Made by a program: the position numbers and the translations under genes
Origin: Sphingorhabdus sp. EL138
GTDB lineage: Bacteria; Pseudomonadota; Alphaproteobacteria; Sphingomonadales; Sphingomonadaceae
Assembly (NCBI RefSeq): GCF_900258045.1
Contig: NZ_OGVD01000002.1
Location: 496,001 to 560,000, forward strand
DNA: 64,000 nt
Reading direction: 5' to 3'
The notes under the pieces: model-generated
Database searches by the model: none
Seen by the model: the letters and a program-made list of their open reading frames with translations, nothing else
What the model was told of the DNA's origin: nothing
Shown: in pieces, positions 9,263-25,214 of the stretch
Layout: each line of letters opens with the position of its first letter
Numbering within the stretch: the stretch's first letter is position 1

Positions 9263-9276
9263 TTGATATAAATCAA
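9263..9276. promoter_or_regulatory. FNR box upstream of porin-nnrS operon
   Basis: TTGATATAAATCAA is a perfect TTGAT-N4-ATCAA FNR/DNR-type site. Its centre is about 65 bp before the ATG at 9335; activation with the site at -41.5 would start transcription near 9311 and leave a leader of about 24 bases. Three more perfect sites occur at 12517, 12620 and 25201. Confidence 0.8.
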
Positions 9277-9334
9277 TTTCAACTACCCAAACTCTCGCTA
9301 GTTGGAAATTCCCAATTTCTCCGGGAGGAATATC

Positions 9335-10570
9335 ATGGTTCAAGTTTCCAAATATTCGGTTCTGCTTTTAGCCGTAGTGGTTATGCTCATTTTTCCGCAG
9401 CCAGTTCTGGCAGAAACAGGAGAAGACGAAACGCAGGTGATTGAACAGCTGAAGCCTTATGCGGATTTGCGATATCGTCTTGAAACCGTCGATCAGGACG
9501 GGCTCCCACGTAATGCAACGGCGTCGACCGTGCGGATAAAGGCCGGTATTGAAACAATTGAATGGCAAGGCCTCAGCGCCAAGCTGGAAATGGAAGCGAT
9601 TTCCAATGTCGGAGCGGAGAAGTTCAACGATACGCTGAACGGGAAGACACAATTTCCCGTGGTGGCTGATCCGGAGGATGTCGTGCTTAACCAGGCCTAT
9701 ATCCGCTGGCGGCATGGCGGGATCGTCGATGCCAAGGCGGGGCGGCAAGCCATCAATCTCGACAACCAGCGCTGGGTTGGTTCGGTCGGCTGGCGGCAAA
9801 ATGACCAGACTATGGATGCGGCGTTGGTGACCGTGACGCCTGCCAAGGGTTTTTCTGCGACCTATGGATATAGCTGGCGGGTCCAACGGATATTTGGGCC
9901 GGACTCACCGAGCGGAACGTTTCGGAACAATGATATCCATCTCATCCGGGTAAACTACCAGGCACCGGTCATCGGTAATGTTACCGCCTATGCCTATCTG
10001 CTGGATATCCCTGATGCGCGGGGTGCATCGTCGCAAACATATGGTGTACGCCTGGCCGGCAAGCAGGATTTGGGCGGTGCAAAATTGCTCTACACCGCGG
10101 AATATGCCCGACAGTCCGACTATGGACCCAATCCAGCCAATTTCCGGCATGATTATCTGTTGTTGGAGCCGGGAATTGCTGCTGGCCCGGTGACCGTGAA
10201 AGTCGGACTGGAAAGGCTGGAAGGTGACGGGGCCACCGCACTGCAAACACCACTGGCCACGCTGCACAAATTTAATGGCTGGGCCGATAAATTTCTCAAT
10301 ACCCCGGCAAATGGCTTACGCGATCTCTATGGTGACGTTATTCTCAAACCCGGTGGCCCTTCGTGGCTGAAAGGAACGACCTTCCGCGCGCTCTACCATG
10401 ATTATAAATCAACGCGCGGTAATCTGGACTATGGCACGGAATGGAATTTCCTGATTGCGCGTAGCTTTGGCAAGCATGTTTCCGTGTCATTAAAATATGC
10501 CGACTATGACAGCGATGGATTCGCGACCGATACGCAGAAATTCTGGTTCACTACCCAGCTTAAATTCTGA
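9335..10570 (+). CDS. Alginate-export-family outer membrane porin
   Basis: 411 residues from the ATG at 9335, with GGGAGGAA at correct spacing. Signal peptide (about 1-28, ending VLA), then a beta-barrel with alternating hydrophobic strands and a terminal aromatic residue (TQLKF) as expected for outer membrane proteins. The N-terminal part (KPYADLRYRLETVDQDG, TVRIKAGIETIEWQGL, AYIRWRHGGIVDAKAGRQ) is characteristic of the Alginate_exp family, members of which often sit near denitrification genes. Here it probably passes small anions or organic substrates rather than alginate, since no alginate genes are present. It overlaps nnrS by one base (TGATG), so the two are cotranscribed behind the FNR box. 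Confidence 0.85.
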   Translation: MVQVSKYSVLLLAVVVMLIFPQPVLAETGEDETQVIEQLKPYADLRYRLETVDQDGLPRNATASTVRIKAGIETIEWQGLSAKLEMEAISNVGAEKFNDTLNGKTQFPVVADPEDVVLNQAYIRWRHGGIVDAKAGRQAINLDNQRWVGSVGWRQNDQTMDAALVTVTPAKGFSATYGYSWRVQRIFGPDSPSGTFRNNDIHLIRVNYQAPVIGNVTAYAYLLDIPDARGASSQTYGVRLAGKQDLGGAKLLYTAEYARQSDYGPNPANFRHDYLLLEPGIAAGPVTVKVGLERLEGDGATALQTPLATLHKFNGWADKFLNTPANGLRDLYGDVILKPGGPSWLKGTTFRALYHDYKSTRGNLDYGTEWNFLIARSFGKHVSVSLKYADYDSDGFATDTQKFWFTTQLKF

Positions 10571-11760
10571 TGGCTGAAACAGAGCAAAGCCTCGGCGACA
10601 AGCGGGGGGCATATTCTGAACCTGCCTTTTTTAGCCATGGCTTTCGGCCTTTTTTCTTTTCCGCCGCGCTGTTCGCCGGGCTGGCCGTACCGCTTTGGAT
10701 GGCGGCCTTCACGCATGGATATCGGATCGGGGCAGATGGCAATGCACTGGGCTGGCACGCGCATGAGATGGTCTTCGGTTATGTCGGCGCCGTGGTCACG
10801 GGATTTATCATGACGGCAATCCCCAACTGGACCGGCCGATTGCCGGTCATGGGCACGCCACTGGCTTTGCTGTTCATGCTCTGGTTGACTGGCCGCGTCG
10901 TGATGTTTGTTGGTGGCAATGCTTTGGTGATTGCTTTCGTTGATTGCCTTTTCCTGTTTGCCGTTGCCGGTCTGGCCTGGCGTGAAGTTATCGTTGGCCA
11001 GAACTGGCGAAACCTGCCCATTTGTGCGCTGATCACCCTGTTGGCGGTCAGCAATATTGTCTGGCATGCGGAGCCAGCACTGAATCTGCCTTACCAGACC
11101 GGGCAGCGGTCGGCACTGGTGGTGATCACAATATTGATGCTGCTGATCGGTGGCCGCATCATCCCCTCCTTCACAACCAACTGGATGAAGAAGCAAGGCA
11201 TGTTGCCGTTGCCGACACCATTCAATCTGTTCGATAAAATGGCCTTGCTGATTTCCGCTCTGGTCATGACCTGTTGGATCATGGCTCCCACATCCATTGT
11301 CACGGGTTGGGGCTTTTTGATTATCGCGGCTTTGCATCTGGTTCGTCTTGTCCGATGGCGTGGATGGGCGGTAGTGCGCGACCCGCTCGTGTTGGTTTTG
11401 CATATCGCCTATATCTGGATTCCGGTATCTTTTGGCATGATCGGGTTCGCCATTTTGCAGCCTGAAATTTTAACTGCGGCTCATGCCTTGCATGCCCTGA
11501 CAACAGGGGCGATAGGGCAGCTCACCATGGCGGTGATGACGAGAGCCAGCTTGGGTCATTGTGGGCGGGAATTGCGCGCCGGGACCGGAACGGTGGCGAT
11601 TTACATATTGATATTCATTGGCGCACTTCTGCGTATCATTTTGCCATTTGGCGATATGGGTTACGCCCTGGCGATGTCGATTGCAGCTATGGTCTGGGCA
11701 TCGGGCTTTCTGCTTTTCGTGATGCTATACGGACCAATGCTATTCGCGCCGCGGCGTTAG
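10570..11760 (+). CDS. nnrS: NnrS-family membrane protein (NO-related)
   Basis: 396 residues with about 12 membrane helices. Family landmarks: GFRPFFF near residue 18 and WHAHEMVFGY (conserved His) near 60, then VVTGFIMTAIPNWTGR. NnrS proteins are haem- and copper-containing membrane proteins that accompany denitrification regulons and ease nitrosative stress; the chemistry is unsettled. The start overlaps the porin stop and the 3' end overlaps the convergent Crp-Fnr gene by 4 bp. Control by the FNR box at 9263 is likely. No nitrite or NO reductase gene is in the window, so any NO it meets is made by genes elsewhere or by other organisms. Confidence 0.9.
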   Translation: MAETEQSLGDKRGAYSEPAFFSHGFRPFFFSAALFAGLAVPLWMAAFTHGYRIGADGNALGWHAHEMVFGYVGAVVTGFIMTAIPNWTGRLPVMGTPLALLFMLWLTGRVVMFVGGNALVIAFVDCLFLFAVAGLAWREVIVGQNWRNLPICALITLLAVSNIVWHAEPALNLPYQTGQRSALVVITILMLLIGGRIIPSFTTNWMKKQGMLPLPTPFNLFDKMALLISALVMTCWIMAPTSIVTGWGFLIIAALHLVRLVRWRGWAVVRDPLVLVLHIAYIWIPVSFGMIGFAILQPEILTAAHALHALTTGAIGQLTMAVMTRASLGHCGRELRAGTGTVAIYILIFIGALLRIILPFGDMGYALAMSIAAMVWASGFLLFVMLYGPMLFAPRR

Positions 11761-12473
11761 CGTACCCCCAGGCCGATTTCAGGATCGTCGATCAGCGGAT
11801 TGGGGCAGGAAAATTTTTCGAGCGCCTGTTGGTCGTCAATATGCACGGTCGCCCCCTGCACCCCGACGCCATGCTTATTTAATGCACCGAAAGACCGGGA
11901 CAGGTTTTCAGGGGTCATGCTTAAAAGGGCAGCAATTGTTCTCTTGTCTGCCGGCAAGGCAAAACTGGAAGCGCCGTCATTCTCTTGCGCCAGACGCAGC
12001 AGATAGTTTGCAAGTCGTTCAAAAGCGGGCCGCAACTTGGTTTCCTTGTGCATTTTGACCATCTGACGATAGGCTTTTGACAATTCGGACGCGATCGCAA
12101 CGGCAAATATCTTGTCTCCGGCAAAATGGCGCCGGATATGCTCGGCCGGGATCATCAGCAATCGCGATGCAGTCAGTGTTCTGGCTGACATCAGGCAAAC
12201 GGCATCAATCAACACCGCAGCGAGAATGAATGCTGAAGTGGGCTTCACGATCGCCATGCTGGTTTCACGTCCGTCATTGCGGGCGAAGAGTTCAGCCGAT
12301 CCCTCAACCAATATGTAAAGGAAATCAGCGCTGTCCCCCTCACGGATCAAATCGACCTGCGCCGGGAAATTCTGAAGAAAAGCGACCGATACCAGGTCTT
12401 CGAAATTTTCATCTGCCATGCCGAAAAACATCGGCAGATCGCGCACCGCGGAAATATCTTGTGAACGCATCAA
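11757..12473 (-). CDS. Crp-Fnr family regulator, DNR/NnrR-like
   Basis: 238 residues: cNMP-type sensor domain (about 10-125), dimer helix (about 126-150) and winged helix with recognition helix TPENLSRSF. This carries the E-x-x-S-R set (E189, S192, R193) that reads TTGAT half-sites in FNR/DNR proteins. Only two Cys are present (about 93 and 222) and none near the N-terminus, so it cannot hold the FNR-type iron-sulfur cluster. This points to the DNR/NnrR group, which responds to NO through haem; haem binding is not visible in the sequence. Perfect TTGAT-N4-ATCAA boxes lie upstream of its own gene, of narK, of the porin-nnrS operon and of the acyl-CoA dehydrogenase operon. It is the obvious candidate regulator of these. 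Confidence 0.88.
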   Translation of the reverse strand: MMRSQDISAVRDLPMFFGMADENFEDLVSVAFLQNFPAQVDLIREGDSADFLYILVEGSAELFARNDGRETSMAIVKPTSAFILAAVLIDAVCLMSARTLTASRLLMIPAEHIRRHFAGDKIFAVAIASELSKAYRQMVKMHKETKLRPAFERLANYLLRLAQENDGASSFALPADKRTIAALLSMTPENLSRSFGALNKHGVGVQGATVHIDDQQALEKFSCPNPLIDDPEIGLGVR

Positions 12474-12516
12474 TTTTCATTCCCCGATTCGCTATTGCAA
12501 AGCTTCTTGGAGTCGA

Positions 12517-12530
12517 TTGATTTATATCAA
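12517..12530. promoter_or_regulatory. FNR box next to the Crp-Fnr gene
   Basis: TTGATTTATATCAA, a perfect TTGAT-N4-ATCAA. It lies 44 bp upstream of the Crp-Fnr regulator start (minus strand) and 182 bp upstream of narK. It is too close to the regulator gene for a long leader, so autoregulation, activating or repressing, is the simplest reading. Confidence 0.75.
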
Positions 12531-12619
12531 GTACTGATTTGAAAGAAACTAAAATCGATATGGAAATCGGATAAATCACCAAGCGACATTTTTCCTTATT
12601 TTCAGCAGTTTTGCATTCT

Positions 12620-12633
12620 TTGATGCAGATCAA
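12620..12633. promoter_or_regulatory. FNR box upstream of narK
   Basis: TTGATGCAGATCAA, a perfect TTGAT-N4-ATCAA centred about 85 bp before the narK ATG. Activation at -41.5 would place the start of transcription near 12668. It would drive narK and, by tight spacing, narGHJI and the parvulin gene. Confidence 0.8.
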
Positions 12634-12711
12634 AGCCGCAAAACTGGTGTCCACTGAAACCAATGCCAAATCAGAGGGCAAGCGGTCTTCTGACATTGAT
12701 GGGGACATGTC

Positions 12712-15456
12712 ATGCAAGATATCGCCAGCGTAACATCAAGACAGCAACATAAAGCGTTGGGGATGAGCACCTTCGCTTTCACCATCTGTTTTGCGGTTTG
12801 GACCATATTCTCGATTATCGGAATCCAGATCAAAGAAGATCTGGGGCTATCTGATACCCAGTTTGGCTTGCTTGTCGGCACACCGATTCTGACCGGATCA
12901 CTTTCCCGTATATTCCTCGGCATCTGGACCGATCAATATGGCGGTCGGCTGGTATTTTCATTGACTATGTTGGCTGCGGCCCTCGCGACTTTTCTGCTCT
13001 CTTGGGCGGATAGTTATATCGTGATGCTCATCGCCGCATTGGGCGTCGGCCTCGCCGGCGGCAGTTTTGCGGTTGGCATTGCCTATGTCTCCAAATGGTA
13101 TTCGCAAAAAAAACAAGGAACTGCGCTCGGTATTTTTGGTGCTGGCAATGTTGGTGCGGCAGTTACCAAGCTTTTGGCACCTCTTGTGCTGGTCGCTTAC
13201 GGCTGGACTGCGGTGGCGCAGGTCTGGGCAGCGGTGCTGGCTGCAACAGCAATCTTTTTCTGGTTCACGACCGAAGACGATCCGGAAATACAATCTCGCA
13301 AACAGAGCGGCGAAAAACCGCGTTCGGCGTTGATGCAGCTGGAGCCGCTGAGGAATCAACAGGTTTGGCGTTTTGCCCTTTACTATTTCTTCGTGTTCGG
13401 TGCCTTTGTCGCGCTAGCGCTTTGGTTACCACATTATCTGATTGATGTTTACGGACTAGACATCAAGACGGCCGGTTTGCTTGCGGCTGCCTATTCCATA
13501 CCGGCGAGCCTGTTTCGTGCCTATGGCGGCTATTTATCGGATCGCTATGGCGCACGCAAAGTGATGTACGCTACTTTCGGCGTGTCGCTGATTTGCCTTT
13601 TCATGCTGAGCTATCCGGAGACGGATTATATCATTCACGGCATCCGGGGGGAGATTAAATTCTCGACTTCCATGGGGCTGGTTCCCTTTGTCGTGACGAT
13701 TTTTGTTCTCGGTTTTTTCATGTCGCTGGGCAAGGCGGCGGTCTACAAGCATATTCCGGTCTATTATCCGGAAAATGTCGGAAGCGTCGGCGGCCTTGTC
13801 GGCATGATCGGCGGGCTGGGCGGCTTCATTTTGCCTATCGCCTTTGGGGCCATGAATGATCTCACCGGTATCTGGACGAGCTGCTACATGCTACTCTTCG
13901 CGCTGGTTGGTATCGCGCTGGCGTGGATGCACTTCTCGGTGCGTCAGATGGAACATAGAGCCATCGGCGAACACATATCTGAACTGCCCGAATTCCCCGA
14001 AATGGAAAATGTCCAGAGCGCATCAGTACACAAAAAGACCCACGCCACTGGCAAAGTGCTGGAGGAATGGGAGCCGGAGGACGAAGAATTCTGGGTGGAT
14101 AGGGGAGCGAAAATTGCTCAGCGCAACCTGTGGATTTCCATTCCCTGCCTGTTGCTCGCTTTCTCCGTCTGGCTGGTCTGGTCGGTGGTGGTCGCCAAGC
14201 TGCCGTCCATTGGTTTCAACTATACGACCGACCAGCTCTTCTGGCTGGCGGCCTTGCCGGGTCTTTCCGGCGCAACGCTGCGCATATTCTACAGTTTCAT
14301 GGTACCAATATTCGGCGGCAGGCTTTGGACTACGCTAACCACGTTGTCATTGATGATACCGGCATTTGGTATCGGCTATGCGGTACAAAATCCGGAAACA
14401 CCCTATTTCATCTTCCTGACACTGGCGCTGCTCTGCGGTCTTGGTGGTGGTAGTTTCGCTTCCTCCATGGCCAATATCAGCTTCTTCTTCCCGAAGCGGC
14501 AGAAAGGAAACGCGCTGGCGCTCAATGCCGGTCTGGGCAATGCCGGTGTATCCGTCATGCAATTTGTGGTGCCGATTGTCATCACCGCTGGCGTTTTTGG
14601 CGCCATGGGCGGCGAGCCTCAGGCGCTGGAAGGTGGCGGTCAGCTGTGGATGCAAAATGCCGGGTTCATCTGGATCCCATTCATTCTGATCAGTTCTGTG
14701 CTTGCGTGGTTCGGCATGAACGACATCGCTTCTGCAAAAGCGACCTTCTCTGATCAGGCCGTGATCTTCCAGCGCAAGCATAACTGGATCATGTGTTTCC
14801 TCTACACAGGGACATTTGGGTCATTTATCGGCTATTCTGCTGGTTTCCCACTATTGTCAAAAATTGCCTTCCCCGATGTGGACTCGCTGCAATATGTGTT
14901 CCTTGGGCCATTGGTTGGTGCGGTTTCGCGCGCGGCAACCGGCTGGATTGCGGACAAATGGGGCGGTGGACGAGTCACCTTCTGGACATTCCTGCTCATG
15001 ATCGCGGCGGTAGCTGGTGTGCTCTATTTCCTTGGTATCAAGGAACAGGAAGGTGCATTCTGGGGCTTCTTCGCGATGTTCATGTTGCTGTTTTTCGCAA
15101 CCGGCATTGGCAACGCATCAACCTTCCAGATGATTCCAATCATCATGCGTAAGGAAGTCGGACGGTTGATGCCTGAGCTGCCTGCCAATGAGCAGCTTCG
15201 CAATGCAGAGAAGGAATCGGCAGCGATTATCGGGTTCACGTCCGCCATCGCTGCTTACGGGGCGTTCTTCATCCCGAAAGCCTATGGTAGCTCGATTGCG
15301 ATGACCGGCACGCCCAACGCGGCGCTCTGGGGCTTCCTGATCTTCTATGCTGCCTGCGCCTTCGTCACGTGGAATTATTACACCCGGCGGGGCAGCCTGC
15401 TTCACGACATCGAGCGGGGCAGAGAAGCCGCCGCACCTATCCCGGCTACCGCCTGA
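12712..15456 (+). CDS. narK: Fused double nitrate/nitrite transporter NarK1-NarK2
   Basis: 914 residues: two complete major-facilitator units (about 15-420 and 470-895, roughly 12 helices each) joined by an acidic linker that includes EEWEPEDEEFW. Both halves have the nitrate signature rich in Gly and small residues (GLGGGSFASSMANISFFFP in the second half, GLAGGSFAVGIAYVSKWY in the first). Fused NarK proteins are known from Paracoccus and other alphaproteobacteria, where one half behaves as a nitrate/H+ symporter and the other as a nitrate/nitrite antiporter. It is the first gene of the nar operon, 13 bp before narG, behind a perfect FNR box. The start is the ATG at 12712. Confidence 0.93.
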   Translation: MQDIASVTSRQQHKALGMSTFAFTICFAVWTIFSIIGIQIKEDLGLSDTQFGLLVGTPILTGSLSRIFLGIWTDQYGGRLVFSLTMLAAALATFLLSWADSYIVMLIAALGVGLAGGSFAVGIAYVSKWYSQKKQGTALGIFGAGNVGAAVTKLLAPLVLVAYGWTAVAQVWAAVLAATAIFFWFTTEDDPEIQSRKQSGEKPRSALMQLEPLRNQQVWRFALYYFFVFGAFVALALWLPHYLIDVYGLDIKTAGLLAAAYSIPASLFRAYGGYLSDRYGARKVMYATFGVSLICLFMLSYPETDYIIHGIRGEIKFSTSMGLVPFVVTIFVLGFFMSLGKAAVYKHIPVYYPENVGSVGGLVGMIGGLGGFILPIAFGAMNDLTGIWTSCYMLLFALVGIALAWMHFSVRQMEHRAIGEHISELPEFPEMENVQSASVHKKTHATGKVLEEWEPEDEEFWVDRGAKIAQRNLWISIPCLLLAFSVWLVWSVVVAKLPSIGFNYTTDQLFWLAALPGLSGATLRIFYSFMVPIFGGRLWTTLTTLSLMIPAFGIGYAVQNPETPYFIFLTLALLCGLGGGSFASSMANISFFFPKRQKGNALALNAGLGNAGVSVMQFVVPIVITAGVFGAMGGEPQALEGGGQLWMQNAGFIWIPFILISSVLAWFGMNDIASAKATFSDQAVIFQRKHNWIMCFLYTGTFGSFIGYSAGFPLLSKIAFPDVDSLQYVFLGPLVGAVSRAATGWIADKWGGGRVTFWTFLLMIAAVAGVLYFLGIKEQEGAFWGFFAMFMLLFFATGIGNASTFQMIPIIMRKEVGRLMPELPANEQLRNAEKESAAIIGFTSAIAAYGAFFIPKAYGSSIAMTGTPNAALWGFLIFYAACAFVTWNYYTRRGSLLHDIERGREAAAPIPATA

Positions 15457-15469
15457 ACGAGGATCCGAA

Positions 15470-18400
15470 ATGAGCCATCTTCTCGACCGATTAAATTTTT
15501 TCAGCAAAACCAAAGCGCCCTATGCCAATGGCCATGGTGTCACGACCAGTGAGGACCGGCGCTGGGAGGATGGCTATCGCAAGCGGTGGCAGCATGACAA
15601 GATTGTCCGCTCCACCCACGGCGTCAATTGCACTGGCTCCTGTTCATGGAAAGTCTATGTGAAGGGCGGGATTGTTACCTGGGAGACGCAGCAGACGGAT
15701 TATCCCCGGACGCGGCCAGATATCCCCAATCACGAACCGCGCGGTTGTTCACGCGGTGCGAGTTATAGCTGGTATATCTACTCCGCCAACCGGGTGAAAT
15801 ATCCGTTGATCCGCTCGCGGCTGATGCGGCTATGGCGCGAAGCACGCAAAACAATGGAACCGGTGGCGGCTTGGGCATCGATTGTCGACGATAAGGCAAA
15901 ACGCGACAGCTACACCAAAATTCGCGGCCATGGCGGCTTCATCCGTGCCAAATGGGATGAGGTTACGGAAATCATAGCGGCGGCCAATGCTTATACGGCG
16001 AAGAAGTACGGCCCGGACCGGGTGATCGGATTCTCGCCTATTCCGGCAATGTCGATGGTCTCGTATGCCGCAGGTTCGCGCTATATGTCACTGCTCGGTG
16101 GCACATGCATGTCCTTTTACGACTGGTATTGCGATTTGCCGCCCGCCTCTCCGATGACCTGGGGCGAGCAGACCGATGTTCCGGAAAGCGCCGACTGGTA
16201 TAATAGCGGATTTCTGATGCTCTGGGGCTCGAACGTTCCGCAGACGCGCACGCCAGATGCGCATTTCTATACCGAGGCCCGCTATAAGGGCGCGAAATCG
16301 GTTGTTGTTTCCCCCGACTATTCGGAAGCCGCCAAATTTTCCGACATGTGGCTACACCCGAAACAAGGAACTGATGCCGCCCTGGCAATGGCCATGGGTC
16401 ATGTCATCCTACGCGAATATCATCTCGACCGGCAGGCAGAATATTTTGAAGAATATGCCCGCAAATATTCCGACATGCCGATGCTGGTCCGGTTGGTCGA
16501 AAAGGATGGTCACTTCATTCCCGAGAGGTTGCTGCGTGCATCGGAGTTCAAGGATGCGCTGGGCGAGACAGAAAATGCTGAGTGGAAAACCGTTGCCCAT
16601 GACGAACTGAGTGGAAAAATTGTCGTTCCAAACGGCACTGTCGGTTCGCGCTGGAGCGAAAAAGGTAAATGGAATCTTGAGGAGAAGGAAAGCGGGGGCA
16701 AGGAAACCAAGCTCAAGCTGACCAATATTCTTGAGGATGATCATGACACGGTTGTCGATGTAGCCTTCCCCTATTTCGGCAATCGTGATCATGATTATTT
16801 TAAAGGGACGGATCATCCCGACAAGCTGATCCGGCGCATTCCGGCAAAGCGTGTGGAATTGGCTGAAGGCGATACATTGGTAGCGTCTGTCTATGACCTC
16901 TTCATGGCCAATTACGGGCTCGATCGCGGTCTGGGCGGCGAGAATATTGCCAAAACCTTCGCCGAGAACGAACCATATACTCCGGTCTGGGCCGAAGAAA
17001 TTACCGGCGTTCCGGCGGACAATATCATCACCGTTGCCCGCGAATTTGCAACCAATGCAGAAAAGACCCGCGGCAAGTCGATGGTCATTCTCGGTGCCGG
17101 TCTCAACCACTGGTATCATATGGATATGAACTATCGGGGGATTATCAATCTCTTGGTTATGTGCGGCTGCATCGGGCAATCTGGCGGCGGCTGGTCGCAT
17201 TATGTGGGACAAGAAAAATTGCGTCCACAGACCGGTTGGCAACCACTGGCCTTCGCGCTTGATTGGGCGCGGCCACCACGGCACCAAAATTCGACCAGCT
17301 TCTTTTATGCGCATAGCGATCAGTGGCGTTATGAGACGCTAGGTGTAGATGAAATCCTGTCGCCTACAGCGCCGGAAGGCGAGATGAGCGGTTCGCTAAT
17401 CGACTTTAATATCCGCGCCGAACGCATGGGGTGGCTGCCGTCGGCACCACAGCTCAAAACCAATCCTCTGGAAGTCGCCAAAGCGGCTCGGGCCGTGGGT
17501 AAAGAGCCCAAGGATTATGTCGTCGATGGCCTAAAATCGGGCGAACTGGAATTGAGCTGCCAAGATCCTGACGATCCAGCCAACTGGCCGCGCAACCTGT
17601 TTGTCTGGCGCTCCAACCTGCTTGGTTCTTCCGGCAAGGGTCATGAATATATGCTCAAGCATCTGCTTGGTACTGAACATGGTGTGCAGGGCAAAGACCT
17701 TGGCGAAATGGGGCATGAGAAACCCGAGGATGTCAAATGGCATGACGATGCGCCCAAGGGAAAACTCGATCTGGTCGTGACATTGGATTTCCGCATGTCC
17801 ACGACTTGCGTTTATTCGGATATCGTGCTGCCGACCGCGACCTGGTATGAGAAAAACGATCTCAACACCTCGGATATGCACCCATTCATTCACCCGCTCT
17901 CAGCGGCGGTAGACCCGGTCTGGGAGTCCAAGTCTGACTGGGAAATTTACAAAGCGATTGCCAAGAAATTCTCTGAAATTGCGCCCGAAGTTCTGGGTGA
18001 GGAAGAAGACGTCGTGATGACGCCCATCCTGCACGACACGCCGGGCGAAATCGCCCAGCCGATGGATGTGAAGGACTGGACGAAGGGTGAGGTTGACCCC
18101 ATTCCTGGCAAGACCATGCCGCAGGTGACAGTGGTCGAACGCGATTATCCCAATCTCTACAAACGTTTTACCGCGCTTGGCCCGTTGATGGACAAGGTGG
18201 GCAATGGCGGCAAAGGCATTGCCTGGCAGACGGCGCATGAGGTTCAACATCTGAGAGACCTCAATGGCGTTGTTACCGAAGAAGGTCCGACCAAGGGCAT
18301 GGCCAAGATCGAGTCCGACATTGACGCGACCGAGGTCATATTGATGCTTGCACCGGAAACCAATGGCGAGGTTGCGGTCAAGGCATGGGAAGCACTGGAA

Positions 18401-19222
18401 GAATTTACCGGGCGCGATCACAAGCATCTGGCGCTCCCGAAAGAGGACGAGAAAATCCGCTATCGTGATGTCGTGGCGCAGCCGCGCAAGATCATCTCTT
18501 CGCCGACATGGTCTGGCATAGAAAGCGAGAAGGTTTGCTATAATGCTGGCTATACCAATGTTCATGAGTTGATCCCGTGGCGGACATTGACCGGGCGGCA
18601 GCAACTCTATCAGGATCATTTGTGGATGCGCGCCTTTGGCGAAGGCTTTTGCGTCTATCGTCCGCCGATTGATACCAAAGCGGTGCAGCCGATGCTCGAA
18701 CGGGCGGAGGGGCAAAAACATGTCGTGCTCAACTTTATCACGCCGCACCAGAAATGGGGTATCCACTCGACCTATACCGACAATCTGTTGATGCTGACGC
18801 TATCGCGCGGGGGACCTATTGTCTGGATGTCGGAAGTGGATGCCGAAAAAGCCGGGTTAGTCGACAATGACTGGGTTGAAGCTTTTAACAGTAACGGTGC
18901 CCTATGTGCCCGTGTCGTTGTGTCACAGCGGATGAAAGAGGGAACCCTCTTCATGTATCACGCGCAGGAAAAAATCGTGAATGTGCCGGGATCCCAGATT
19001 ACAGGCCAGCGCGGCGGTATACATAACAGCGTGACCCGTGCCGTGCTGAAACCGACGCATATGATCGGTGGCTATGCACAGCAAAGTTACGGCTTCAACT
19101 ACTACGGCACGGTCGGTTCGAACCGCGATGAATTCGTAATCGTGCGCAAGATGACCGATGTTGATTGGCTGGATGGAGAAAAAGACCGGCTACCCCCTGA
19201 TACAATGGAGGCGGCGGAATGA
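15470..19222 (+). CDS. narG: Respiratory nitrate reductase alpha subunit
   Basis: 1250 residues from the ATG at 15470 (an open extension to 15347 overlaps narK and lacks a ribosome site). Catalytic molybdenum subunit of membrane-bound nitrate reductase, cytoplasmic face. Cluster ligands H50, C54, C58 (THGVNCTGSC) and C93 (RGCSRG) are all present, as is the molybdenum ligand D222 in YDWYCDLPPASP. The HGVN...C pattern is of NarG type (His-liganded FS0). There is no twin-arginine leader, which agrees with a cytoplasmic-facing enzyme. It overlaps narH by 4 bp. The length matches the family (about 1250). Confidence 0.97.
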   Translation: MSHLLDRLNFFSKTKAPYANGHGVTTSEDRRWEDGYRKRWQHDKIVRSTHGVNCTGSCSWKVYVKGGIVTWETQQTDYPRTRPDIPNHEPRGCSRGASYSWYIYSANRVKYPLIRSRLMRLWREARKTMEPVAAWASIVDDKAKRDSYTKIRGHGGFIRAKWDEVTEIIAAANAYTAKKYGPDRVIGFSPIPAMSMVSYAAGSRYMSLLGGTCMSFYDWYCDLPPASPMTWGEQTDVPESADWYNSGFLMLWGSNVPQTRTPDAHFYTEARYKGAKSVVVSPDYSEAAKFSDMWLHPKQGTDAALAMAMGHVILREYHLDRQAEYFEEYARKYSDMPMLVRLVEKDGHFIPERLLRASEFKDALGETENAEWKTVAHDELSGKIVVPNGTVGSRWSEKGKWNLEEKESGGKETKLKLTNILEDDHDTVVDVAFPYFGNRDHDYFKGTDHPDKLIRRIPAKRVELAEGDTLVASVYDLFMANYGLDRGLGGENIAKTFAENEPYTPVWAEEITGVPADNIITVAREFATNAEKTRGKSMVILGAGLNHWYHMDMNYRGIINLLVMCGCIGQSGGGWSHYVGQEKLRPQTGWQPLAFALDWARPPRHQNSTSFFYAHSDQWRYETLGVDEILSPTAPEGEMSGSLIDFNIRAERMGWLPSAPQLKTNPLEVAKAARAVGKEPKDYVVDGLKSGELELSCQDPDDPANWPRNLFVWRSNLLGSSGKGHEYMLKHLLGTEHGVQGKDLGEMGHEKPEDVKWHDDAPKGKLDLVVTLDFRMSTTCVYSDIVLPTATWYEKNDLNTSDMHPFIHPLSAAVDPVWESKSDWEIYKAIAKKFSEIAPEVLGEEEDVVMTPILHDTPGEIAQPMDVKDWTKGEVDPIPGKTMPQVTVVERDYPNLYKRFTALGPLMDKVGNGGKGIAWQTAHEVQHLRDLNGVVTEEGPTKGMAKIESDIDATEVILMLAPETNGEVAVKAWEALEEFTGRDHKHLALPKEDEKIRYRDVVAQPRKIISSPTWSGIESEKVCYNAGYTNVHELIPWRTLTGRQQLYQDHLWMRAFGEGFCVYRPPIDTKAVQPMLERAEGQKHVVLNFITPHQKWGIHSTYTDNLLMLTLSRGGPIVWMSEVDAEKAGLVDNDWVEAFNSNGALCARVVVSQRMKEGTLFMYHAQEKIVNVPGSQITGQRGGIHNSVTRAVLKPTHMIGGYAQQSYGFNYYGTVGSNRDEFVIVRKMTDVDWLDGEKDRLPPDTMEAAE

Positions 19223-20763
19223 AGGTACGTGCACAAATAGGCAAGGTCCTGAACCTTGATAAATGTATCGGCTGTCACACTTGCTCGGTCACCTGCAAGA
19301 ATGTTTGGACCAGCCGCGAAGGCATGGAATATGTCTGGTTCAATAATGTCGAGACCAAGCCCGGTATCGGCTATCCCAAGGACTGGGAAAACCAAAAACA
19401 GTGGAATGGCGGCTGGGAACGACAGCGCAACGGTCGGATACGCCCCAAAATGGGTGGTAAATGGCGGCTGCTGGCGAAGATTTTCGCCAATCCGGATATG
19501 CCGGAAATTGACGATTATTATGAGCCATTTACCTTCGATTACGAGCATCTGCAAAATGCGCCGGAGATGAAGGCGATGCCCACGGCGCGTCCGCGGTCGC
19601 TGGTGTCGGGAGAGCGGATGGAAAAAATCAACTGGGGACCAAATTGGGAAGAAATTCTTGGTGGGGAATTTTCCAAACGCTCTGAGGACTATAATTTCAA
19701 AGGCGTCGAGAAAGAGATTTACGGCGAATTTGAAAATACCTTTATGATGTATCTGCCGCGTCTGTGCGAGCATTGCCTCAACCCGACCTGCGTGGCGGCT
19801 TGCCCATCCGGTTCTATCTACAAGCGCGAGGAAGATGGCATTGTCCTCATAGATCAAGAGAAATGCCGCGGCTGGCGGATGTGTGTGTCGGGCTGTCCAT
19901 ACAAGAAAATCTATTATAACTGGAACAGCGGCAAGTCAGAAAAATGCACTTTCTGCTATCCCCGTATCGAGGTGGGCCAGCCGACGGTCTGTTCGGAAAC
20001 CTGTGTTGGTCGCATCCGTTATCTCGGTGTGATGCTCTATGATGCAGATCGCATTGAAGAAGCGGCATCGGCCGAAGACGAGCAAGATCTCTATCAGGCG
20101 CAGCTTGATATTTTTCTCGATCCCAATGATCCCGAAGTGATTGAACAGGCGCGTAAGGACGGTGTCCCGGAGGCATGGCTGGAATCCGCGCGCAAGTCGC
20201 CGGTCTATAAGATGGCGATGGAATGGAAGGTCGCTTTCCCGCTACACCCGGAATACCGTACTCTTCCAATGGTCTGGTATGTGCCGCCGCTCTCACCGAT
20301 CAACTCGGCGGCGGAAGCGGGCAAGATCGCGGTTAGTGATGATATGCCTGATGTCCGATCACTGCGTATCCCCTTGCGCTATCTCGCCAATCTCCTGACC
20401 GCTGGAGAGGAAGAACCGGTTGCACTATGTCTGGAACGGATGCTGGCGATGCGCAGCTATATGCGCGCCAAGACGATTGACGGCGTGATCGCAAGTGATG
20501 TTGCCGAGCGGGTTGGCATGACACCGGCACAGATCGATGAAATGTATCATGTCATGGCAATCGCCAATTACGAGGATCGTTTCGTCATTCCGACCAGCCA
20601 CCGGGAAGATGTCGAAGATGCCTTTGATGAGCGCGGGGCCTGCGGCTTCTCGTTCGGGAATGGCTGTTCCGGTGGTTCCACGGAGACAAATCTGTTCGGT
20701 ACGCCCAAGCGCAAGAAAATCCAGACGCCGTCCGATGTTTTTGCCGGAGGAGACACAAGATGA
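19219..20763 (+). CDS. narH: Respiratory nitrate reductase beta subunit
   Basis: 514 residues. Iron-sulfur subunit passing electrons from NarI to NarG. Cys groups: C16-x2-C19-x2-C22-x3-C26 (KCIGCHTCSVTCKN), CEHCLNPTCVAACPSG, CRGWRMCVSGCPY and CTFCYP with CSETCVGR. The Trp in CRGWRMC replaces a Cys and marks the site that holds a [3Fe-4S] rather than [4Fe-4S] cluster, as in characterised NarH. The start ATG overlaps the narG stop (ATGA), and narH overlaps narJ in the same way, so stoichiometric coupling is expected. Confidence 0.97.
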   Translation: MKVRAQIGKVLNLDKCIGCHTCSVTCKNVWTSREGMEYVWFNNVETKPGIGYPKDWENQKQWNGGWERQRNGRIRPKMGGKWRLLAKIFANPDMPEIDDYYEPFTFDYEHLQNAPEMKAMPTARPRSLVSGERMEKINWGPNWEEILGGEFSKRSEDYNFKGVEKEIYGEFENTFMMYLPRLCEHCLNPTCVAACPSGSIYKREEDGIVLIDQEKCRGWRMCVSGCPYKKIYYNWNSGKSEKCTFCYPRIEVGQPTVCSETCVGRIRYLGVMLYDADRIEEAASAEDEQDLYQAQLDIFLDPNDPEVIEQARKDGVPEAWLESARKSPVYKMAMEWKVAFPLHPEYRTLPMVWYVPPLSPINSAAEAGKIAVSDDMPDVRSLRIPLRYLANLLTAGEEEPVALCLERMLAMRSYMRAKTIDGVIASDVAERVGMTPAQIDEMYHVMAIANYEDRFVIPTSHREDVEDAFDERGACGFSFGNGCSGGSTETNLFGTPKRKKIQTPSDVFAGGDTR

Positions 20764-21476
20764 CCAAGACTTTCAAAATCCTCGCCGCACTGCTGACCTA
20801 TCCTACGGCTGAAATTCAGGAAGCGGTGCCCGATTTCCTGCCGCTGCTGAAGGAGGAGGCCCTTGTTCCTGCGGCCTTTATCAAGCGTTTGAAACCATTG
20901 ATTACCGAATATCAAGAACGTGATCTGCTCGACTTGCAGGAACGCTATGTGCTGCTGTTTGATCGCACGCGCTCGCTGTCGCTCCACCTGTTCGAGCATG
21001 TCCATGGTGAGAGCCGGGATCGCGGGCAGGCAATGGTCGATCTCAAAGCCATGTACGAAGAAAACGGGTTGATCATCGATTCCACCGAGCTTCCTGACTT
21101 TCTGCCACTATTCCTCGAATTTCTCTCGATCCTGCCTTGCGGAGAGGCGCTGCAAACACTGGGCGAGCCGGCTCATGTGATTGCTGCGATCGGGGAGAGG
21201 CTGGCCAAGCGGGATAGCAGCTATGCTGCCGTCTTGGGGGCGCTTGGCCAGTTAGCGGGACCGGCGGACGCCGAAGTCATGGAGGCTTTGCGCAAGGAGC
21301 CGGATGATGATCCGGAGGATCTGGACGCGCTCGACGAGGCATGGGAAGCAGAACAGGTAACATTCGGTCCGGGTTCTCCCGAAGAAGGCTGCCCCAAGGT
21401 CGCCAATATGCTCGATAATCTAAGGGCGGAAATGCCCGGCGATGCAAAGCAAGACGGAGGCGCGAACAATGGCTGA
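20760..21476 (+). CDS. narJ: Nitrate reductase delta subunit, molybdenum cofactor assembly chaperone
   Basis: 238 residues, all-helical, with the NarJ/TorD-family signature HLFEHVHGESRDRGQAMVDL near residues 77-97. NarJ binds the NarG N-terminus and is needed for cofactor insertion and membrane attachment; it is not part of the final enzyme. The C-terminal third is acidic (PDDDPEDLDALDEAWEAEQV), as usual in the family. It overlaps both neighbours (ATGA with narH, 8 bp with narI). Confidence 0.95.
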   Translation: MTKTFKILAALLTYPTAEIQEAVPDFLPLLKEEALVPAAFIKRLKPLITEYQERDLLDLQERYVLLFDRTRSLSLHLFEHVHGESRDRGQAMVDLKAMYEENGLIIDSTELPDFLPLFLEFLSILPCGEALQTLGEPAHVIAAIGERLAKRDSSYAAVLGALGQLAGPADAEVMEALRKEPDDDPEDLDALDEAWEAEQVTFGPGSPEEGCPKVANMLDNLRAEMPGDAKQDGGANNG

Positions 21477-22164
21477 ATTTTTGAACCATCTCGTTTTCGG
21501 CATCTATCCCTATATCGCGCTGGCGGTACTCGCGATTGGATCGATCATCCGCTATGATCGCGAACCCTATAGCTGGCGTTCCGGATCGAGCCAGCTCTTG
21601 CGACGCAAGCAATTGATGATTGGATCACTATCATTTCATCTTGGCGTGTTGGTGATTTTCTTTGGTCACTTGGGCGGCCTGCTTACACCAATTGCACTAT
21701 TCGATGCACTGGGTATCAGCCATGGTGCCAAGCAAGTAATGGCAATTGTTGTCGGCGGCGTTGCGGGCGTGTTGGCTTTTTTCGGTGCGAGCCTGCTTCT
21801 TCACCGCCGACTATTCGACGCCCGTATCAGGCGATCTTCCAGCTTCTCCGATATCATGATCCTGTTCCTGCTTTGGCTGCAACTGGTGCTCGGCATTGGA
21901 ACGATCTTCGTTTCGCTCGATCATCTGGATGGCCATGAAATGGTCAAGTTCATGAATTGGGCGCAAGGGATATTTACCTTCCAGGCAGATGCTTCATCCT
22001 ATGTTCTGGATGCCCATCCGATATTCAAGGCTCACTTGTTCTTGGGACTGACCATATTCCTTATCTTCCCCTTCACCCGGCTGGTGCACATGCTATCCGC
22101 CCCAGTGCGTTACATCTGGCGTTCCGGTTATCAAATTGTCCGTAGCAAAAAGGCGGCTCTGTAA
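21469..22164 (+). CDS. narI: Nitrate reductase gamma subunit, cytochrome b
   Basis: 231 residues from the ATG at 21469; five membrane helices. The four haem-b ligands are visible: H57 and H67 in SFHLGVLVIFFGHLGG, and H189 and H207 near the C-terminus (KAHLFLGLTIF and RLVHMLSAP), positions almost the same as H56, H66, H187 and H205 of E. coli NarI. It takes electrons from quinol at the periplasmic side. It overlaps narJ by 8 bp and the following parvulin gene by one base (TAATG). Confidence 0.96.
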   Translation: MAEFLNHLVFGIYPYIALAVLAIGSIIRYDREPYSWRSGSSQLLRRKQLMIGSLSFHLGVLVIFFGHLGGLLTPIALFDALGISHGAKQVMAIVVGGVAGVLAFFGASLLLHRRLFDARIRRSSSFSDIMILFLLWLQLVLGIGTIFVSLDHLDGHEMVKFMNWAQGIFTFQADASSYVLDAHPIFKAHLFLGLTIFLIFPFTRLVHMLSAPVRYIWRSGYQIVRSKKAAL

Positions 22165-22973
22165 TGGAAACAGCACAAGCCCCCATATTCTCCGTTAATG
22201 GAATGGAAATTACGCCCGAGGCAATCGCAGTGGAAGCGCAAAACCATCCATCGGACAATCCTGACGAGGCCTGGTCAGAGGCTGCGCGCGCGCTGGCAAT
22301 CAAAACCTTGCTGCTGGCAGAAGCTGACCGGCTGTCCATCGAAGCCTCCCTCATTGATGATGCGCAGGGCCGTACATTGGCTCCAGACGATGCTCGGATC
22401 GAAGCCCTGTTGGAACAGGAAGTGACGACGCCCGATGCCGATGAAGAAACCTGCCGGCGCTACTATGACCAGCATATCGATCAGTTCAGTAGCCCCGACC
22501 TGGTCGAAGCGTCGCATATTTTATTTGCAGCGCCAGAGGATGATAAAAAACGTTATGCCAAAGCGGAATTGAGCGCCATTGATACCATTTTAGAGCTAAG
22601 GGATCACCCTGAGCGTTTTGCGGCATTGGCGGAAACCCTCTCAGCCTGTCCCTCGGCAAAACAGGCTGGCAATCTGGGGCAGATTGGTCCTGGCCAGACG
22701 GTGGAAGAGTTTGAAACTTTCCTGTTCAACCTTGAACCAAACCAAATATGTCCGGTTCCCGTAAAGACCCGCTTTGGTGTTCACGTCATCAAAGCTGGAA
22801 GGAAAATTTCCGGAGAAACACTGCCATTCGAAGCCGTGCAAAGTAAGATCGCTGATTATCTTGAAGAATCCAGTTGGCGGCGCGCGGTGGCGCAATATCT
22901 TAAAATATTAATCGGCAATGCTGATATTTCCGGCTTGGACATAAAGGGCAGCAAAGGTCTGTTGGTACAATAG
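22164..22973 (+). CDS. Parvulin-type peptidyl-prolyl isomerase in the nar operon
   Basis: 269 residues. An N-terminal helical arm (about 1-100) is followed by a parvulin domain (about 108-215: EASHILFAAPEDD, then GNLGQIGPGQTVEEFETFLF and PVKTRFGVHVIKA). No signal peptide or membrane helix is visible, so it should act in the cytoplasm, unlike SurA or PrsA. Genes of this kind close several nar operons and are thought to help assemble the reductase; a NifM-like role is an analogy only. It starts within the narI stop, so cotranslation is certain. The operon ends here; the next gene is convergent with an 11-bp gap and no clear terminator. Confidence 0.88.
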   Translation: METAQAPIFSVNGMEITPEAIAVEAQNHPSDNPDEAWSEAARALAIKTLLLAEADRLSIEASLIDDAQGRTLAPDDARIEALLEQEVTTPDADEETCRRYYDQHIDQFSSPDLVEASHILFAAPEDDKKRYAKAELSAIDTILELRDHPERFAALAETLSACPSAKQAGNLGQIGPGQTVEEFETFLFNLEPNQICPVPVKTRFGVHVIKAGRKISGETLPFEAVQSKIADYLEESSWRRAVAQYLKILIGNADISGLDIKGSKGLLVQ

Positions 22974-22984
22974 TCAGGATCGGC

Positions 22985-23842
22985 TCAGTAGACGGGTGGA
23001 GGACTCCAGCCGGCCTTGCTGAGCTGATTCAAATTATCCGGAAGTATCGGATCATAGGGCGCATCATAGTTAAACGCGGCTTGCTCTTCGGTCCAGATAT
23101 TCACATGTTTGCCGCCGACAAACCGGATCAAAGAAACACTACCCCATCGTGATCCAAATGGTCCATGTGCGATATCGGGCGGTCGCCAAAAATAGGCACC
23201 AGGATGCATGGTCCCTTGCGGTCCGGTCAATGCTCCGGAGATGATATAGGCTTCTTCTACAACGGGGTGGATTTCCTGAGGACCCCATCCCCCTTGCGGT
23301 GAAGCTTGCGGTAGGATCAGGGATAGAAACGTGCGCTCTCCCGTTTCGGGATCGGTGCGCAAGTCTTTTCGCGAAATTCCCAGATGTTTCAGATTTGGGT
23401 CATTCAGGGTCATGTCCCAATCCATCTCTGCGACATCAAGATGCCGGATCGCCTTATCCGCTTTTTCGGCCTGTCCATCTCCTGGCTGAGCGATCAATGT
23501 CGGTTCCCTATTGTAAAATGCGAGCAATACACATCCATGCGGCGATCGCATTTCATGGCGGGTCCAGCCGGCCGGCAGATAAGCGTAACTGTCCGCCGGA
23601 TAGAAATGCTCATCCATTTCCAGCGTGCCTTCAAGAACATAAAACTCTTCGTCCGCCGCAATATATTCAGGCCCTTGGCGCGACCAGCCAGCGGGATAGC
23701 GCATCAGCGCCGAACAGGCGCCATCCTTGGGATCGCGGCTCAACAACTTATATTCCGCGTCGGCGCGCGCCAGCCCGCTACCAATGCGCTGCCATGGCAA
23801 GACCTGCGACTGGATAAATTCGATATGGCCGCGATCAAGCAT
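22985..23842 (-). CDS. Bicupin protein paired with acyl-CoA dehydrogenase
   Basis: 285 residues from the ATG at 23842 (an extension to 23896 has no start signal). Two cupin domains: the first about 45-125 ([35 protein letters not shown]), the second about 185-265 ([33 protein letters not shown]). His and Glu residues in both could bind metal. Bicupins of this type (DUF4437-like) include small-molecule dioxygenases and binding proteins; the substrate is unknown. The gene overlaps the stop of the acyl-CoA dehydrogenase by 8 bp, so the two proteins are made together and probably act on one pathway. A perfect FNR box lies upstream of the pair. Confidence 0.8.
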
Positions 23843-25091
23843 GTTGTCGCCACTCCCGCATACGTTCCTGATGCTCCCGAAACTCCAGCCGCGCAATTGT
23901 TCTCAAATGTACTTCATCAGGCCCGTCAGCGATGCGCAGAGAGCGCATTCCGGCATAAACATGGGCCAATCCAAAGTCATCTGACAGCCCCCCGGCACCG
24001 TGCGCCTGGATTGCCATGTCGATGACTTTTAAAGCGGTTCGGGGAGCCGCCACCTTGATCATCGCGATTTCCCGTTTGGCCTCCTTGTTGCCGACTTTGT
24101 CCATCATGTCGGCCGCTTTCAGACAAAGCAGACGCGACATTTCTATATCCATTCGCGCTTCGCCAATATGCTGCTCCCAGATCGACTGATCAGCGAGACG
24201 CTTGCCAAAGGCGACACGGGACAATAGCCGGTCAGCCATCGCTTCGATTGCCCGTTCGGCGGCACCGATGGATCTCATGCAGTGATGGATACGACCTGGT
24301 CCTAGACGACCCTGCGCTATCTCAAATCCACGACCTTCACCCAATATCATATTGGAGGCCGGCACACGAACGTTGCGCATCACAATTTCTGCATGGCCAT
24401 GCGGCGCGTCATCATATCCGAGAACTGGCAGCATCCTTATGATTTCCAGTCCGGGTGCATCCATCGGAACCAGAATCTGTGACTGCTGGAGATGGCTGGA
24501 AGCCTCGGGATTAGTTTTTCCCATCACAATTGCCAGCTTGCAGCGAGGGTCTCCAGCGCCGGAAGACCACCATTTCCTGCCGTTGATGATATAACTGTCA
24601 CCATCCCTCACAATGGAGGTTTGGATATTGGAGGCATCAGAAGATGCAACATCGGGTTCGGTCATAAGAAAGGCTGAACGAATCTCACCATCGAGAAGCG
24701 GGCGAAGCCACTTTTCTTTCTGTTCCGGCGTCCCGTATCGATACAATACTTCCATATTGCCGGTGTCCGGTGCGGAACAGTTAAATGCCTCTGATGCAAA
24801 CATCACACGTCCCATTTCCTCCGCGCACAATGCATAATCCAGATTGCTCAACCCAGCGCCACGATAATTGTCCTCATCATGTTCGGACGGCGGCAAGAAC
24901 AGGTTCCAGAGACCATCGGAATAAGCTCTGGCTTTCAATTCTTCCAGAAAGCCCGGAATTTCCCACCGTTTGGGATTGTTATGATCGATATGATCGCGAT
25001 ATTCGGGTTCTTTTGGAAGGGCGTAGTCTGTGATAAATTCCCTTACGCGGTCACGCCAACGTAGCTGCTGTTCAGAATGGTTGAAATCCAT
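23835..25091 (-). CDS. Acyl-CoA dehydrogenase family flavoprotein
   Basis: 418 residues, standard three-domain acyl-CoA dehydrogenase: FAD-binding segment [15 protein letters not shown] near 145, [12 protein letters not shown] near 176, C-terminal helical domain with [18 protein letters not shown] near 390. The GPDEVH ending resembles ACAD10/11-like and FadE-type large-substrate members rather than short-chain enzymes. It oxidises an acyl-CoA to the enoyl-CoA and passes electrons to ETF; the chain is not predictable. First gene of a two-gene operon with the bicupin. The unit stands alone with no other beta-oxidation gene but has a perfect FNR box 110 bp upstream, which suggests use under low oxygen or NO. 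Confidence 0.9.
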
Positions 25092-25200
25092 CTCGCTTCT
25101 GCTCCCATTTTTCCGAGCAGAAAATCGCCAGCTGCGTGATCAATCGGCAGGCTATATTGCTGCGGTGAAAAACAGCATAGTCCATTTGCCGAATATATAT

Positions 25201-25214
25201 TTGATCCTGATCAA
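25201..25214. promoter_or_regulatory. FNR box upstream of the acyl-CoA dehydrogenase/bicupin operon
   Basis: TTGATCCTGATCAA, a perfect TTGAT-N4-ATCAA. Centred 117 bp upstream of the start at 25091 (minus strand); activation at -41.5 would start transcription near 25166. The remaining gap up to 25383 holds a small hairpin (TCCGCT...AGCGGA around 25307-25329) with GGGACAAAGC that resembles sequence near 7.96 kb. Confidence 0.75.

Follow-up and report, generated by a model that had tools for sequence, protein, structure and literature searches.

Introduction

Among the closest described relatives of the system examined here is the control of nitrate respiration in Paracoccus. In the Paracoccus literature, NarR is described as a nitrate/nitrite sensor that controls nar jointly with FnrP, a narR mutant is said to denitrify from nitrite but hardly from nitrate, and dual control of nar by oxygen and by nitrate/nitrite is already published. 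A similar arrangement occurs in Sphingorhabdus sp. EL138, in a stretch of 64,000 nucleotides (nt) that we call the window (RefSeq assembly GCF_900258045.1, contig NZ_OGVD01000002.1, positions 496,001 to 560,000), where a regulator gene of the CRP/FNR family stands beside narK-narGHJI and four exact copies of the box TTGAT-N4-ATCAA lie before genes of the locus. As in the narR-narKGHJI region of Paracoccus, the regulator lacks N-terminal cysteines (47% identity), is divergent from a fused narK followed by narGHJI, and shares with it a gap holding two boxes. Unlike in Paracoccus, a porin gene and nnrS lie behind the regulator with a box of the same class as its own, and nirK and nirS were not found in the genome.

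The layout has a second counterpart in Sphingopyxis granuli TFA (PMC7713065). The sections of that paper on which we rely describe three FNR boxes upstream of narU, a narU box at -42.5, a divergent ftrB 'similar to NarR', and further FNR boxes before ccoN, an acyl-CoA dehydrogenase operon and a flavin monooxygenase. The layout is therefore known, and the acyl-CoA dehydrogenase has a precedent as an FNR target. EL138 resembles S. granuli in carrying boxes before the nar transporter, the divergent ftrB/narR, ccoN, acyl-CoA dehydrogenase and flavin monooxygenase genes; it differs in having two boxes rather than three at the transporter, and one Cys-bearing FNR was found instead of two. In the same sections all boxes are treated as FNR sites, and spacer classes and phasing are not described.

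Sensing of nitric oxide (NO) through haem is described for DNR of Pseudomonas and NNR of Paracoccus, and Caulobacter FtrB is reported to act downstream, as a regulator, within the FixK hypoxia network (further papers drawn on: PMC8139620, PMC3541799, PMC4771820, PMC3751524, PMC6472365, PMC5398030, PMC1274295, PMC4999443). The EL138 regulator shares with DNR and NNR the CRP/FNR family, the lack of N-terminal cysteines and an FNR-like box; unlike them, it is distant in sequence by score comparison, and no conserved His or Cys is seen in its relatives. It resembles Caulobacter FtrB in matching the model NF050815, and differs in that its score lies below the cut-off of that model.

FNR paralogues that share the ExxSR recognition set are usually held to see the same box, and the separation of their targets is an open problem. 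Here we report that boxes of the nar locus fall into two spacer classes, which are possibly new, and that the paired promoter boxes are helically phased. We consider it likely that two CRP/FNR-family regulators, NarR and FNR, control the locus as a nitrate-respiration module, with the boxes split between them. A wider proposal, which could equally well prove right or wrong, is that NarR has an operator of its own, TTGAY-WWWW-RTCAA (typically TTGAT-AWWT-RTCAA), distinguished from the FNR box by the spacer alone, and that nar promoters of Alphaproteobacteria pair both operators whole turns apart (about 93, 103, 114 or 136 bp), joining nitrate and oxygen sensing on one DNA face. No description of this operator, spacer rule or phasing was found in the limited collection of papers searched. 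If the targets of NarR and FNR are told apart by spacer class and phase, the boxes of a genome could be sorted by regulator without experiment, and nitrate respiration in Alphaproteobacteria would gain a testable promoter rule; for EL138 itself, the predicted signal would be corrected from NO to nitrate/nitrite.

The nar locus and its boxes

An original prediction, made from the sequence of the window alone, had placed exact TTGAT-N4-ATCAA sites at 9263, 12517, 12620 and 25201, upstream of a porin-nnrS operon, the regulator, a fused narK-narGHJI-parvulin operon and an acyl-CoA dehydrogenase-bicupin operon. A sequence scan found all four sites at these coordinates, and the genes behind them proved to be those named. 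The features of the locus, in which the assignment of each box to a protein is predicted, are as follows.

9263..9276, exact box TTGATATAAATCAA with an A/T spacer, centred about 65 nt upstream of the porin ATG; predicted NarR site
9335..10570, + strand, outer-membrane porin (Opr/Porin_4-like), by profile matches
10570..11760, + strand, nnrS (PF05940, 349 bits), overlapping the porin stop
11757..12470, - strand, NarR/FtrB-type regulator of the CRP/FNR family (PRK09392, 318 bits)
12517..12530, exact box on the regulator side with an A/T spacer, centred about 53 nt upstream of the regulator ATG; predicted NarR site
12620..12633, exact box on the narK side with a GCAG spacer, centred about 85 nt upstream of the narK ATG; predicted FNR site
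12712..15456, + strand, narK, two fused nitrate/nitrite transporters, by profile match
15470..19222, + strand, narG (TIGR01580, 2166 bits), start codon picked by eye
19219..20763, + strand, narH, from the sequence and its match to annotated Tistrella narH
20760..21476, + strand, narJ, from the sequence and its match to annotated Tistrella narJ
21469..22164, + strand, narI, from the sequence and its match to annotated Tistrella narI, start codon picked by eye
22164..22973, + strand, parvulin-type peptidyl-prolyl isomerase, by profile matches
22985..23842, - strand, bicupin (Cupin_7/DUF4437), by profile match, start codon picked by eye
23835..25091, - strand, acyl-CoA dehydrogenase, by profile matches
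25201..25214, exact box with a CAGG/CCTG spacer, centred about 116 nt upstream of the acyl-CoA dehydrogenase ATG; predicted FNR site

Each read toward its own gene, the boxes at 9263 and 12517 are identical (TTGATATAAATCAA), and 103 bp separate the centres of the narK-side and regulator-side boxes. The window holds five exact boxes against 0.13 expected, and none of 100 dinucleotide shuffles reached at least five; the fifth, at 3465-3478, was absent from the original prediction and lies within the reading frame 2978-5017 (sensor-kinase-like), with no sign of a role there. At up to two mismatches the window shows no excess (43 matches against a shuffle mean of 37.8, with 23 of 100 shuffles reaching 43), and the information therefore lies only in near-perfect sites.

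A scan of the whole genome for TTGAT-N4-ATCAA, suggested together with the original prediction, covered 3.66 Mb in 4 contigs and returned 13 exact copies, against one of the reversed pattern. With one mismatch allowed there were 248 matches against 27, so that the reversed pattern is an imperfect background and the exact count alone amounts to a moderate genome-wide excess. The position of the boxes is a stronger argument than their exact count: by inspection 10 of the 13 copies fall in non-coding DNA or at the edge of a gene, and three are intragenic, a non-coding bias of P ~1e-7 when the non-coding share of the window (~12%) stands in for that of the genome. Exact boxes in this genome precede ccoN, nar, three acyl-CoA dehydrogenases and one flavin monooxygenase. 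Sigma-70 consensus promoters near the boxes showed no excess over shuffles (5 against 3.9).

To follow the boxes in relatives, 95 loci were taken, with regulator and narK starts deduced from tblastn alignment edges; 15 were dropped (no usable narK end or an unusual gap), leaving 80 regulator-narK gaps, or 77 after removal of 3 loci of genomes counted twice. The 80 gaps contain 128 exact copies of TTGAY-N4-RTCAA, compared with 0.08 in mononucleotide shuffles. Among the 77 gaps, 73 have a regulator-side box, 70 a narK-side box and 66 both. A porin box with at most one mismatch was present at all six loci examined, four times with an all-A/T spacer. The acyl-CoA dehydrogenase box is shared by the window and the two closest orthologues (77-79% identical; one with a mismatch), and 27 homologues of 65-70% identity had none within 300 nt; 30 homologues were examined for boxes, and 90 of 119 genomes had a match. 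The sites that the original prediction had put before the porin, regulator, narK and acyl-CoA dehydrogenase genes are thus conserved in relatives.

Two spacer classes

The two promoter boxes differ in their spacers, which are all A/T in 61 of 73 regulator-side boxes as against 7 of 70 on the narK side. As a yardstick for FNR we took the ccoN boxes of the same family. Of 30 loci, 21 carry one with no more than a single mismatch (the orientation of one locus, L155, is possibly wrong), and none of these 21 has an all-A/T spacer. When boxes were classified by spacer and flank bases with each left out in turn, 138 of 143 gap boxes were placed correctly. The boxes at 9263 and 12517 score +3.3 each, in the regulator class; those at 12620 (-11.3) and 25201 (-10.4) and the ccoN box (-8.2) fall on the FNR side, as do 14 of the first 15 ccoN boxes found. 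This pattern suggests boxes of two kinds, NarR and FNR, and the four boxes of the locus are probably split accordingly, 9263 and 12517 being predicted NarR sites and 12620 and 25201 predicted FNR sites.

The form TTGAY-WWWW-RTCAA occurs exactly twice in the 3.66-Mb genome of EL138, at 9263 and 12517. Eight of the nine family genomes with narR carry 14 such A/T-class boxes, all at most 11.2 kb from narR, and 11 of the 110 without narR carry 19, six of them in one genome. The informative part of this comparison is the lack of A/T-class boxes elsewhere in the narR genomes of sphingomonads. Each of six narR plasmid records (6.84 Mb in all) has one A/T-class box, in the narR gap. In 18 further narR genomes we counted 36, with 15 in the gap (14 genomes), five within 13 kb and 16 elsewhere; narR positions in these 24 genomes and records were matched to coordinates by hand. 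The link between A/T box and narR is strong in sphingomonads and weaker outside them.

A/T boxes in the family also lie at other genes near nar. One (G087, contig 1, 450439; L064/L219) is between divergent moaA-like and mobA-like genes, named by eye, and could possibly connect NarR with molybdenum cofactor supply. Another (G116, contig 169, 11441; L218) precedes by about 60 nt a second CRP/FNR-like gene, which adjoins the nar cluster.

Helical phase between the promoter boxes

Centre-to-centre distances between the two promoter boxes fall at 93 bp (3 gaps), 103-104 (6), 112-115 (33) and 134-138 (24), and are phased with R 0.85 at 10.5 bp and 0.89 at 11. At 10.5 bp no phase appears between box and regulator start (R 0.14), narK box and narK start (0.22) or regulator-side box and narK start (0.17), distances in which the start codons are less certain than the boxes. 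Random placement on the tree matched the observed phasing in 0 of 5000 trials, a test that counts 12 segments as independent though there are four distance classes; the test on the four clusters gives P 0.0023, which is the cautious figure. The two promoter boxes thus keep helical phase across Alphaproteobacteria. Four gaps (L104, L108, L116, L131) have boxes at both the 114 and the 136 positions, as though one site had shifted by two helical turns.

Possible DNA bending by IHF between the boxes was also considered. Of the 66 gaps, 26 hold IHF-like matches, where shuffles give 6.7, and these matches are not independent, since 21 of them are one conserved T-rich element. This putative IHF-like element (near CATTTATTTCGTTA) keeps a constant distance of 35-36 bp to the narK-side box, on its upstream side, in L040, L041, L112-L118 and other gaps.

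Identity of the regulator

The regulator has 237 residues from an ATG at 12470 and combines a CRP/FNR sensor domain with a DNA-binding domain (PF00027, PF13545). Its top NCBIfam model is FtrB PRK09392, at 318 bits over a cut-off of 211; against the Caulobacter FtrB model NF050815 it reaches 211 bits, under the cut-off of 300, and against the Pseudomonas DNR chain in the PDB 51 bits. The proteins of Paracoccus denitrificans and P. pantotrophus are 47% identical to it over 96%, score 342 and 335 bits on PRK09392, and are encoded divergently from a fused narK-narGHJI (L037, L038), as the window regulator is; these Paracoccus records are unannotated at the locus, and the name narR is therefore given by position. 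The same divergent layout recurs in Tistrella, P. zhejiangensis, Marinovum and Rhizobium jaguaris, making six of six plasmid records in all. From its sequence and surroundings, the gene at 11757-12470 looks like NarR, of the FtrB family.

An alignment of relatives, the window protein included, comprised 90 sequences (92 extracted, 2 empty ones removed). It upholds two points of the original prediction: the ExxSR recognition set is present as E188, S191 and R192, invariant in all 90, and none of the 90, the window regulator among them, has two or more Cys within the first 30 residues, the place of iron-sulfur cysteines. It also contains no conserved His or Cys column, the commonest being position 52 (His in 63%, Tyr here) and position 133 (Cys in 61%, Ala here). 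The haem ligands of DNR-type proteins are not known to follow a simple motif. R97, kept in 88 of 90 relatives where DNR aligns a Gln, is a candidate pocket residue. The AlphaFold2 model (mean predicted local distance difference test score, pLDDT, 90) matches CRP/FNR proteins in general by Foldseek, with DNR 3dkw at rank 25, and the structure therefore leaves the ligand undecided. Models for nirK (TIGR02376) and nirS (PF02239) had no match in the genome; norB was not searched. The further claim of the original prediction, a DNR-like protein sensing NO or haem, is not supported by the family scores, the alignment and the searches for nirK and nirS, and was rejected as the leading interpretation. 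By analogy with the Paracoccus literature, the ligand is most likely nitrate/nitrite.

A clear orthologue of the regulator is present in 9 of 119 family genomes (42-100% identity; two 25% matches set aside). All nine are among the ten that by our own reading have narG, a count that takes in G116, with a narG truncated at the end of its contig, and G007, with one that runs over several frames; the tenth is G081. In G007 (L070) the narK-narGHJI matches are broken over several frames beside an intact regulator, by decay or sequencing errors.

A second ExxSR protein, probably a cysteine-bearing FNR

Five proteins of the CRP/FNR family exceed the Pfam cut-off in the EL138 genome. One, on contig 4 (G000:C4 near 263953-264663), begins with MMNNCEQCVVKNKAIC and carries TIETVSR as its recognition helix, and with these features it resembles a [4Fe-4S] FNR, although the FnrL model gives it 236 bits, short of the cut-off of 300. 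One of the 13 exact boxes sits between this gene and ccoN (a TIGR00780 match). Since the protein has the same E, S and R residues as the window regulator, both would be expected to recognise TTGAT half-sites. A single regulon under a single regulator, as originally proposed, was discarded because the genome has this second ExxSR protein and the boxes fall into two classes. The two conserved promoter boxes and the FNR gene are consistent with a joint requirement for FNR and NarR in full nar expression, by analogy with Paracoccus.

Proposed control and its alternatives

The interpretation that we favour, a module divided between NarR and FNR, starts from observations (the sites, the family assignment, the conservation of both promoter boxes, the two spacer classes and the helical phasing) and continues as a model. 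NarR would sense nitrate/nitrite, and the separate Cys-bearing FNR on another contig would sense oxygen. FNR would bind the narK-side box, the centre of which would fit activation near -41.5 if the leader were about 44 nt, and also the box before the acyl-CoA dehydrogenase. NarR on the regulator-side box, some ten turns upstream, would aid FNR at narK-narGHJI from the same DNA face, and on the box at 9263 it would act alone at porin-nnrS. The first paper on NarR, by Wood et al. in 2001, is reported to have noted the loss of a sigma-contact residue, which would fit action from a distance.

Several points weigh against this division. The pairing of boxes with proteins, the ligand and joint activation are predicted rather than observed, and A/T-spacer boxes may well be bound by an FNR of the E. 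coli type as well. Because the narR gaps served to define the A/T class, its presence there is partly circular; seven narK-side boxes also belong to it, the margin of 9263 and 12517 in the classification is a modest +3.3 bits, and two of the six porin boxes of relatives are not A/T, giving mixed spacers. Outside sphingomonads the class is not exclusive to narR, 16 of the 36 boxes lying away from it and four of the 18 genomes lacking a copy in the gap. G081 (L072), which carries nar but lacks narR, shows no recognisable box in the 700 nt preceding narK and therefore cannot separate the two regulators.

The alternative that survives best, though we regard it as unlikely, takes all four boxes as plain FNR sites, so that FNR governs nar, porin-nnrS, the acyl-CoA dehydrogenase and the regulator gene, and the regulator itself uses other or weaker sites. 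The shared E, S and R residues of the two proteins are in its favour, as is the S. granuli work, which in the sections used takes the narU-ftrB boxes as FNR sites and reports ftrB 2.97-fold lower in an fnr double mutant (PMC7713065); the FNR targets given there, ccoN, acyl-CoA dehydrogenase and flavin monooxygenase, carry exact boxes in EL138 as well. It leaves the two spacer classes unaccounted for, with no ccoN box in the A/T class, and likewise the restriction of A/T boxes to the nar locus in sphingomonad narR genomes; in 11 relatives, moreover, the regulator-side box lies 11-16 nt from the regulator start, where activation of that gene is implausible.

Somewhat less probable again is that the regulator-side box serves autoregulation of the regulator gene and that the phase is a relic of shared ancestry. 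A box centre 44-60 nt before the regulator start, as in many relatives including EL138, would suit a promoter of that gene. Over all relatives, however, this distance runs from 11 to 104 nt and is unphased, while the narK box is phase-locked to the regulator-side box; the first measure is blurred, as start codons were inferred from alignment. The four gaps with boxes at both 114 and 136 also speak against this alternative.

That a DNR-like NO/haem sensor alone governs the four sites, as originally supposed, we hold to be very improbable: the NO-linked nnrS downstream of the porin box, the presence of DNR among the matching PDB chains and the latitude of DNR-type haem ligands fit it, but the regulator is far nearer to NarR/FtrB than to DNR, its relatives have no conserved His or Cys, nirK and nirS were not found, and the haem NO sensor of Paracoccus is, in the literature portions used, another paralogue, NNR/NnrR.

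Boxes at acyl-CoA dehydrogenase genes

The acyl-CoA dehydrogenase site at first gave the impression of being unlinked to nar, since the nar loci examined in relatives contain no acyl-CoA dehydrogenase/cupin pair; it later proved to be conserved in the closest orthologues. Two other exact boxes of the EL138 genome, on contigs 2 and 3 (L003 1501-1514, L006 1501-1514), stand about 15-20 nt before Pfam-confirmed acyl-CoA dehydrogenase starts, too near for class II activation, which leaves repression or chance. In G078 the acyl-CoA dehydrogenase and cupin genes diverge from an intergenic box, at a distance of about 7 kb from the nar operon. Counterparts of the gene at 23835-25091 (L215, L216) lie near nnrS in G078 and G039, and the one in G039 is also near an apparent oxygen-independent ribonucleotide reductase, recognised by eye.

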